A DNA stretch of 64,000 nt from Ideonella benzenivorans (lineage in GTDB: Bacteria; Pseudomonadota; Gammaproteobacteria; Burkholderiales; Burkholderiaceae_C): positions 139,690 to 203,689 of the forward strand of contig NZ_JAGWCB010000008.1 in assembly GCF_020387415.1 (NCBI RefSeq), read 5' to 3'. The notes under the pieces were generated by a model. It did no database searches. It was not told the origin of the DNA and was given only the letters and a program-made list of their open reading frames with translations. A program made the translations under genes and the position numbers. This document shows positions 24,306-52,300 of the stretch, in pieces (the stretch's first letter is position 1; the number at the start of each line of letters is the position of its first letter).

Positions 24306-24774
24306 TCGCGGCCAGCGCGGCCAGGCCTGCGCGCGCATCGCCCACCACCAGGTGGGCCGCGCAGGCCAGCATCAGGTTGCGCGGCAGACCGAAATCCTCG
24401 ACGGCGCAGCCGGCGGCGTCCGTGGCGCCACCCATCTGCACCCGCAACGGGCGGCCATCGTCCAGGTAGCCCACCACCGGCTTGCCCAGCGCGGCGGCAA
24501 AGCCCACCTCGAAGGCCGTGCCTGAATCCGGCTCTGCGCCGCGGAAGTTGTTCAGGTTGGCCAGCACCGCGTCGGCTTGGCGGATCAGGCCCAGGTTGGC
24601 CTCGTAGATCCAGCGTGCGGCGGCAGCGCCCGCCAGCCCCGCCGGCAGGGCGTTGTCCAGCGGGTACAGCCCCGCCCAGCCTTGTTCGGCACACAGCGCT
24701 CTCAGGCGCTCGCCCCGGGCCAGGGCATCCGGGCGAAACACATCGAAGCCGGCGAGGTAGACCGTGGGCGTCAT
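24289..24774 (-). CDS. Nucleoside 2-deoxyribosyltransferase family protein
   Basis: A 161-residue protein of the nucleoside deoxyribosyltransferase fold. The N-terminal [13 protein letters not shown] and the central [21 protein letters not shown] are typical, with the Glu in FEVGFA the likely nucleophile. It may exchange bases on deoxynucleosides or hydrolyse a nucleotide for salvage. The ATG at 24774 begins the recognisable domain. It ends convergently, overlapping the small hypothetical gene by 17 bp, and is divergent from alaS. Confidence 0.85.
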
Positions 24775-24869
24775 GCGCAGGGAGCCTGAGGTGGCGTGGT
24801 GAAGCGATCGCCGATTTTCGGCACCGCCGCATGCGCGGTCCACGCAGGCGCTGGCCCGGGGGCGGCTCC

Positions 24870-24875
24870 TATAAT
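24870..24875 (+). promoter_or_regulatory. Candidate -10 box (TATAAT) for alaS
   Basis: A perfect TATAAT lies 66 bp before alaS in the divergent region. No strong -35 hexamer is seen. It predicts a leader of about 60 nt. Confidence 0.5.
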
Positions 24876-24941
24876 GAAAGGTTCCATTTCTCCCCCGTCC
24901 GGGTTCTGAGCCGGGCGGGCTCACTTTCTCGAAAGTTCCGG

Positions 24942-28199: not shown

Positions 28200-29432
28200 T
28201 CAGTGCAGCTTGAGGCGGCCCGAGACGCGCCGCTGAAGCAGCCGCACCAGGGCCAGCACCATGGTGTCGACGGTGCCGATGATGGCGCGGTGGTGGTTCA
28301 GGTGCAGGGACATGTACATCCACTTCGCGATCAGCCCCTCGACGAAGAAGTTGCGACCTGAGAGCCCGCCCATCAGGTTGCCCACGCCCTTGTTCTCGCC
28401 CAGCGAGACCAGCGAGCCAAAGTCGCGGTATTGGAAGGGCGCGCTGACCGGACGTTCCTTCAGCAGGCCCAGCAGCACCTGCTTCAGGTAGCTGGCCTGC
28501 TGGTGGGCGGCCTGGGCCCGGGCCGGCACCAGGCGGCCGCTTTCCCATTCGCAGGCGGCGCAGTCGCCCATGGCGTAGACGCCCTCGGCCGAGCTGCGCA
28601 GCTGCGCATCCACCACGAACTGGTGGGCGCGGTTGGTGGTCAGCCCGAGGCGCTCGTTGCTGTCGGCCGCCTTGATGCCGGCCGCCCAGACGATCAGGTC
28701 GGCAGGGATGCGGCCTTTGTCTGTCACCAGCGCATCGGCCTCGATGGCTTGCACCCGGGTGCCGGTCAGCACCTTGACCTGCTTGCGCTGCAGGGCCACC
28801 TGGGCTTGCTGGGAGATCTTCTCGGGCAGGCCGGCCAGGATGCGCGGCGCGGCTTCGACGATGGTGATGTCCAGGCGGAAGCGCTGCTCTTTGCTCAGGC
28901 CCTCGGTCAGCTCCTGGTGGGCCTCGATCAGCTCGGCTGACAGCTCCACCCCGGTGGCGCCAGCGCCGACGATGGCCAGCGAGAGCAGCTTGTCCTCGGA
29001 AAACGCCGTGCGCACGAAGGCGGTGAGCAGGCGCTGGTGGAAGCGCTCGGCGTCCAGCGTCTGCTCCAGCACATAGGCATGCTCGGCGCCCGGGGTGCCG
29101 AAGAAGTTGGAGCCGCTGCCGATGGCCAGCACCAGCCAGCGGTAGCTGATGTGTCGTTCCGGCACCAGCACCTGTCCCTGGGCGTCCAGCACTGGTGCCA
29201 GCGTGATCTGGCGTTTCTGGGGGTCCAGGCCGCCCAGCTCACCCAGCGTGAAGCTGAAGTGGTTGCGCCGGGCCAGGGTGGTGTAGGACAGGCCCTCCTG
29301 ATGGGCATCGAGCGTGCCGGCGGCCACCTCGTGCAGGGTGGGCTTCCAGATGTGGAAGGAGGCGCGGTCGATCAGCAGGACCTTTTCCTGGCCGCCGGCG
29401 CCGCCGCCGACGATGACGATGTCGTAATGCAT
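28200..29432 (-). CDS. ndh: Type II NADH dehydrogenase with N-terminal internal deletion
   Basis: A 410-residue single-subunit NADH:quinone oxidoreductase. Recognisable parts are the FAD motif GGGAGG (9-14), IWKPTLHEVAAG, the NADH motif IVGAGATGVELSAEL, the second FAD contact VYAMGDCA and a C-terminal membrane-associating region ending GRLKLH as in E. coli Ndh. After GGGAGG only four residues (QEKV) precede LLIDR, where E. coli has about 19. The first Rossmann helix is therefore missing in frame. The rest of the frame is intact, so this is a short variant, a damaged gene or an assembly artefact. No good ribosome-binding site precedes the ATG at 29432. Confidence 0.85.
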   Translation of the reverse strand: MHYDIVIVGGGAGGQEKVLLIDRASFHIWKPTLHEVAAGTLDAHQEGLSYTTLARRNHFSFTLGELGGLDPQKRQITLAPVLDAQGQVLVPERHISYRWLVLAIGSGSNFFGTPGAEHAYVLEQTLDAERFHQRLLTAFVRTAFSEDKLLSLAIVGAGATGVELSAELIEAHQELTEGLSKEQRFRLDITIVEAAPRILAGLPEKISQQAQVALQRKQVKVLTGTRVQAIEADALVTDKGRIPADLIVWAAGIKAADSNERLGLTTNRAHQFVVDAQLRSSAEGVYAMGDCAACEWESGRLVPARAQAAHQQASYLKQVLLGLLKERPVSAPFQYRDFGSLVSLGENKGVGNLMGGLSGRNFFVEGLIAKWMYMSLHLNHHRAIIGTVDTMVLALVRLLQRRVSGRLKLH

Positions 29433-29494: not shown

Positions 29495-30592
29495 TCAGCG
29501 GTTCGGCGGGGTGGGCGCGGTCATGTGCCGGTCCAGGCCCTGGGCGCGCCACTGCGGCAGGTACTGCGGGTAGTCGCGCTGGATGAAGTCGATCAGGGCC
29601 TCGCGCACCGCGCAGCGCAGGTCCCAGGCGGCCGAGGAGTTGGCGGCCGTCACCAGGGCACGCAACTGCAGGGCCTGTTCACCTGCTTCGGTGACCTGCA
29701 GCAGGGCCAGGCGCTTGTCCCACAGCGGCGAGGCCTCGCAGGCCCGCTGCAGCGCATCTCGCAGCGGCGCGAGCGGCATGCGGTAGTCCACCCACAGGAA
29801 GACGGAGCCGATCAACTCGGCGTTCTCGCGCGTCCAGTTCTGGAACGGGTGTTCGATCCACCACTGCAGGGGCACGATCAGGCAACGCTGGTCCCAGATG
29901 CGCACGACGACGTAGGCACTGCTGATTTCCTCGACCACGCCCCATTCGCCCTCGACGATCACCACATCGTCCAGCCGGATCGGCTGGGTCAGGCCGATCT
30001 GCAGGCCGGCAATCAGGTTGCCCAGCACCGGCCGTGCCGCGAAGCCGGCGATGATGCCCATCATGCCGGCCGAGGCCAGCAGGCTGGTGCCGATCTGCCG
30101 CACCGTCGGGAAGGTCATCAGCGCCAGGGCCGTCCCCACCAGGCTGACCACGCCCACCAGCGTGCGCGAGAGCACCCGGGTCTGGGTGTAGAGGCGGCGG
30201 GCCTGCAGGTTGTCGGCCTGCGTCAGAGGCAGGCGGCTCAGGTAGGCGGCCGTGTAGTGGTTGATGCTGCGCACGATCAGCCAGGTGACGCAGGCCATCA
30301 CGCCCAGCGCGGTGAGGCGCTGCAGGCCCTGCACGCCGTGCAGGTCGTCTGGCGCACCGTGCCAGACCAGGCTGAGCGCGATCAGCGGCAGCAGCCAGCG
30401 CGCCGGCAGATGGGCCCCCGTCACCACAGCGGCCGCCTGGGCATGACCGCGCGTGGCGTGGTCCAGGAGGCGGCGCCCCACCCGGTAGATCACCGCGGAG
30501 GCGATCAGGGCCACCAGGGCGGCCCCCAGCAGGGTCAACCATTCGGCCATGGGGTCGGGCAGGTCGTGGAACCAGGCGAGCAGAGGTGTCAT
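29495..30592 (-). CDS. MscS family mechanosensitive channel
   Basis: A 365-residue inner-membrane protein with about four hydrophobic segments (near residues 12-35, 60-80, 95-115 and 145-200). The pore-lining helix and beta domain appear as [20 protein letters not shown] and [19 protein letters not shown], followed by a cytosolic alpha/beta domain. It should release solutes on osmotic downshift, although its pore helix differs from E. coli MscS. The ATG at 30592 was chosen because the first helix begins just after it. Confidence 0.91.
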
Positions 30593-30738
30593 GCAGAAGG
30601 GGGGGCGTGGAGGAGAAGCGTGGTTATGCTTGTGCAAATGTAATTGATCGGGATTCCACGGTGGCGGGGGGCGCGGGGTTCGCATCGGGGCAGGGGACGT
30701 GCGACACTGGCAGGCCCCGTGTTTTCCTGGAGACCCCG

Positions 30739-42646: not shown

Positions 42647-44965
<2,319 letters not shown>

Positions 44966-52293: not shown

Positions 52294-52300
52294 GTTCGGT

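Follow-up and report, generated by a model that had tools for sequence, protein, structure and literature searches.

In Rossmann folds, the helix which follows the first GxGxxG motif is needed to bind the pyrophosphate of FAD. In NDH-2s (type II NADH:quinone oxidoreductases), the GxGxxG of the first domain belongs to the FAD site, according to PMC5299459. Solved structures include the enzymes of C. thermarum (4NWZ) and S. aureus (5NA1), a mycobacterial one (9MQY) and YjlD (9PXK). A literature search for type II NADH dehydrogenase and Ideonella, both terms being searched together, returned nothing. In vitro work has established that replication can slip where a hairpin lies between direct repeats: the polymerase pauses and re-pairs at the next repeat, and the PCR enzymes Taq and Pfu, among others, can also slip on hairpin templates (PMC4134008).

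The window, i.e., the whole stretch of 64,000 nucleotides from Ideonella benzenivorans that was analysed, contains a gene of this family (Table 1). Its product (410 residues, minus-strand frame 29432-28200) begins with MHYDIVIVGGGAGGQEKVLLIDR. Pfam detects Pyr_redox_2 (PF07992) with an E-value of 2.3e-44; the two dinucleotide-binding domains expected of an NDH-2 are present, and NDH-2s are the top PDB matches, both by sequence and by fold. Among the 25 NCBIfam models listed, of 32, none reaches its curated cut-off. The second GxGxxGxE (GAGATGVE at residue 156) and the AQxAxQ motif of the quinone site (AQAAHQ at residue 306) are found in the protein, which also has the first glycine motif but not the FAD-binding helix after it.

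Over most of its length the window protein is like the solved NDH-2s in sequence and in fold, and it has in common with them both GxGxxG motifs, AQxAxQ and a GD pair (motifs as given in PMC5299459). Unlike them, it is short of 16 residues, those of the helix that comes after the first GxGxxG. Sequence alignments with YjlD and with the S. aureus NDH-2 start only past the gap, at window residues 15-16; some weaker matches that are not NDH-2s (FSP1) start at residue 5. The gene is therefore an NDH-2 deletion allele and not a demonstrated working NDH-2. The upstream neighbour, on the minus strand at 29495-30685, adjoins it, and we take it, from its translation, to resemble an MscS-type mechanosensitive channel.

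Table 1. Features of the NDH-2 gene in the window.
Feature	Position	Strand	Basis
Coding sequence of NDH-2 (type II NADH:quinone oxidoreductase), 48 bp deleted, 410 residues and stop	28200..29432	-	Open reading frame, Pfam, PDB matches
First GxGxxG (FAD-binding fold), GGGAGG, codons 9-14, retained	29391..29408	-	Motif reading
Second GxGxxG (NADH domain), GAGATG, codons 156-161, intact	28950..28967	-	Motif reading
AQAAHQ, codons 306-311, fits the AQxAxQ quinone-site motif, intact	28500..28517	-	Motif reading; motif as in PMC5299459
Deletion junction, one remaining copy of GCGGCC	29390..29395	-	Alignment to relatives, repeat scan

An earlier note on this DNA, which used E. coli Ndh as a reference, had proposed that the first FAD-binding helix is absent from this NADH dehydrogenase after an in-frame loss of about 45 bp. 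The comparison was made here with closer relatives instead. The closest ones, G010, G008 and G004, are three genomes from within the genus and encode proteins that are 97-98% identical to the window protein (matched over 1278 bp), all of full length, with 426 residues compared to 410. Alignment of the DNA to these three shows that the loss is indeed in frame, after codon 14, but that its size is exactly 48 bp (16 codons). The gap falls between residues 14 and 15 of the window protein, and the frame reads MHYDIVIVGGGAGG up to the junction and QEKVLLIDRASFHIWKPTLHEV beyond it. In the relatives, the lost segment encodes the helix with which the FAD-binding Rossmann fold begins, and it includes residues that do not vary among the aligned relatives (21 of 21).

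The helix sequence after GGGAGG is kept in all 57 homologues that were fetched from named genomes, both isolates and MAGs (a set which overlaps the G-numbered genomes, several genomes being identical), which confirms the observation that the window gene lacks it. The spacing from GGGAGG to WKP is 20 residues in the window, compared to 36 in 54 of these homologues; three others have 32, 35 and 41, respectively. A survey of 250 genomes of the family, that of the window included, gave 15 genomes with a match at the orthologue threshold (E <= 1e-100), 14 besides the window's own; at most seven first-look candidates were scored per genome, so the absence of an orthologue from a given genome is uncertain. 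In eight of these 14 orthologues, the match exceeds the query by exactly 16 codons, as judged by length and not by place. The sequences of the remaining six were retrieved, and all carry the helix sequence, with a spacing of 36 in two and of 32 in four. The short form occurs in none of the 57 named-genome loci and in none of the 14 family orthologues; among these relatives, this rules out that it is the norm of the family.

The AlphaFold model of the I. oryzae protein (mean pLDDT 76.5, pTM 0.73) shows a strand at residues 2-8, a helix at 12-33 and a strand at 34-38, with block pLDDT values of 86-94 over residues 11-40. The model of the window protein (mean pLDDT 65.9, pTM 0.59) keeps the strands, at 2-8 and 18-22, but the helix that should separate them is missing, and pLDDT drops under 50 at residues 10-16 and 25-57. 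Both models rest on shallow alignments (22 and 21 sequences). The C-terminus of the window protein, far from the deletion, is also weak (pLDDT below 50 at residues 338-410, compared to 355-388 and 406-426 in the I. oryzae relative), and the drop in confidence is therefore not entirely local. From the relative to the window protein, the TM-score against the solved NDH-2 5kmq_A (on query length) decreases from 0.71 to 0.63 and the rmsd increases from 2.9 to 4.5 Å; against 9a63_B, an integrative model of YjlD and the top match, these values change from 0.72 to 0.64 and from 3.1 to 4.8 Å. With the first helix of the FAD fold gone, the window protein has most likely lost both FAD binding and activity.

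The endpoints of the deletion suggest how it could have occurred. In G004 and G010, two copies of GCGGCC located 48 bp apart bound the missing segment, and the window keeps one of them; in G008, the repeat shared at the endpoints is only 4 bp long. The GCGGCC pair is the only repeat of at least 6 bp with a 48-bp spacing in the gene of G004 and G010, where it accounts by itself for the 0.6% of the 1233 possible positions of a 48-bp deletion that have that much homology; in G008, 4.4% of the positions match its 4-bp homology. Direct repeats of at least 6 bp within 21-120 bp are common in the gene (64-77 pairs per relative), and the match of the endpoints to a repeat is therefore suggestive, not a proof.

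The missing segment is GC-rich. That of G004, taken with its flanks as a 121-nt single-stranded DNA, folds into two adjacent hairpins (-38 kcal/mol, z -3.64), and none of 200 shuffled sequences is as stable. Within the gene, the stability of a 60-mer of the segment ranks in the top 0.2% in G004, 2.2% in G010 and 12% in G008, where it is unremarkable; these ranks are relative only, and the ancestral sequence may differ. The deletion resembles hairpin-promoted replication slippage in that a short direct repeat, of which one copy is left, marks its limits, with inverted repeats inside; it differs in scale, the template described in PMC4134008 having 27-bp repeats and 300-bp arms, compared to a repeat of 4-6 bp and short hairpins here. 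Endpoints in short repeats beside hairpins would be a signature of polymerase slippage, which makes replication slippage the suggested cause.

We consider it probable that the window carries a recent, in-frame and probably inactivating slippage deletion of NDH-2, which is tolerated in the presence of complex I. The ancestor would have had a normal NDH-2 of 426 residues. During DNA replication, hairpins in the early part of the gene would have made the polymerase pause, and the new strand would have re-paired between the copies of a direct repeat of 4-6 bp located 48 bp apart, so that the segment in the loop dropped out. The reading frame would have been kept and the first Rossmann helix of the FAD fold lost, leading to an inactive protein unable to bind FAD, and this recent loss would be tolerated through the oxidation of NADH by complex I. 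The recent deletion is the best reading because the helix is present in all the relatives examined, the endpoints lie in a short repeat beside hairpins, and the rest of the gene has not decayed.

No second intact NDH-2 was detected in the organism's own genome at E <= 0.001, all 22 candidates having been scored; besides the gene itself, the search gave a single weak match (E 6.6e-5), which covers residues 187-305 at 30% identity. Complex I, the main enzyme to which NDH-2 is a backup, is general in the genus as judged from NuoD alone, NuoD being above the family cut-off in all 16 genomes, the window's own included. An NDH-2 orthologue (E below 1e-100) is found in nine of these 16 genomes, again including the window's own, and in none of the other seven, of which two are less complete (80 and 91%). 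Loss of NDH-2 is plausibly tolerated in the genus. Complex I probably makes up for the lost enzyme by oxidising NADH, and the loss is therefore probably tolerated.

Codon changes that are private to the window (the three closest relatives agree and the window differs) amount to 31 synonymous and 5 nonsynonymous ones, with a dN/dS of about 0.07; for the three relatives taken jointly, the corresponding counts are 38 and 6 (Fisher p = 1). The neutral share of the window branch is at most about 6.5%, a rough Poisson bound obtained for the window against the three relatives and not strictly polarised, and this bound rules out an old pseudogene. The remainder of the protein, with its later motifs intact and no decay in its codon changes, is thus well preserved, as the earlier note had stated. 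There is no relaxed selection in the rest of the gene, and therefore the deletion is very recent, or it is an artefact, or the protein is still constrained and used. Codons without decay would be expected just as much from an artefact or from a function that has been retained, which counts against a null allele produced by slippage. Of the three readings that had been offered at first, a recent inactivating deletion fits best, an unusual variant is weakened since no relative examined has the short form, and an assembly collapse or another artefact is less probable.

The alternative that survives best is that the deletion was produced during sequencing or library preparation, either because a PCR polymerase slipped at the hairpin or because the assembler bridged the short repeat, and that the strain has the full gene. 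The slippage of Taq and Pfu on hairpin templates, seen with the long arms and repeats described above (PMC4134008), makes this conceivable, as do the GC-richness of the segment and its strong folding in G004, and an intact codon pattern is what an artefact would leave. Such an origin is nevertheless rather unlikely: a repeat of 4-6 bp is far below the usual assembly k-mers, which would disfavour a collapse, and a deletion of random length would keep the frame one time in three. Moreover, the genome is 99.04% complete in 21 contigs, the contig of the window being 545 kb long, and poor assembly across the window has no support in the stretches aligned to relatives. In these stretches no clearly broken gene was seen by eye (genes were called by a codon-position GC rule, and multi-frame flags were taken by eye as non-coding or antisense ORFs), and no gene other than that of NDH-2 has a shared private indel of at least 6 bp where both G004 and G008 align.

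Three private deletions of at least 6 bp, i.e., with the same place and length against G004 and G008, were counted in the stretches of the window aligned to both, and the one in NDH-2 alone is intragenic; deletions seen against one relative only, or unequal in length, were left out of this count. The comparison covered the window from 16.6 kb onwards, against G004 with the exception of 23.9-24.2 and 29.8-30.7 kb. The other two deletions, of 10 bp at 44965 and of 13 bp at 52298, are located at or just past gene ends, and no reading frame is seen to be broken. Private insertions of at least 6 bp are absent from the stretches aligned to both relatives; private indels under 6 bp exist in the window.

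At positions 24768-24917 of the window, gene blocks are adjacent which are about 17.5 kb apart in G004 and G008. The intervening stretch of G004 presumably encodes TPR-rich and TonB-like proteins, as read by eye. A 3-kb piece of this stretch gave only matches of 26-84 bases in the window's own genome (40 of 870 candidates scored). This stretch was either lost from the window's genome or gained by the relatives.

It is improbable that the short protein is a folded and functional variant, perhaps with altered properties, its frame having been kept by selection. The in-frame deletion, the intact later motifs and the conservation of the rest of the gene (the low dN/dS on private changes) are consistent with such a variant, but the short form was met in none of the named-genome loci or family orthologues, the lost segment holds residues that are invariant in all the aligned relatives, and the AlphaFold confidence is low at residues 10-16 and 25-57. 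That a short NDH-2-like protein is made and selected, with an unusual flavin pocket or in a role that needs only the NADH domain and the membrane helices, is more improbable still.

The finding does not define a new enzyme class, and the deletion is ordinary in kind. If the short form works, the indispensability of the helix would be challenged, the only arguments on that side being the intact frame and the conserved remainder. If the deletion is real, it would be a clean case of a recent, in-frame, probable null allele produced by slippage in a GC-rich genome. It would then also be a warning that such a gene may pass as a normal NADH dehydrogenase, since its length and its frame look fine.
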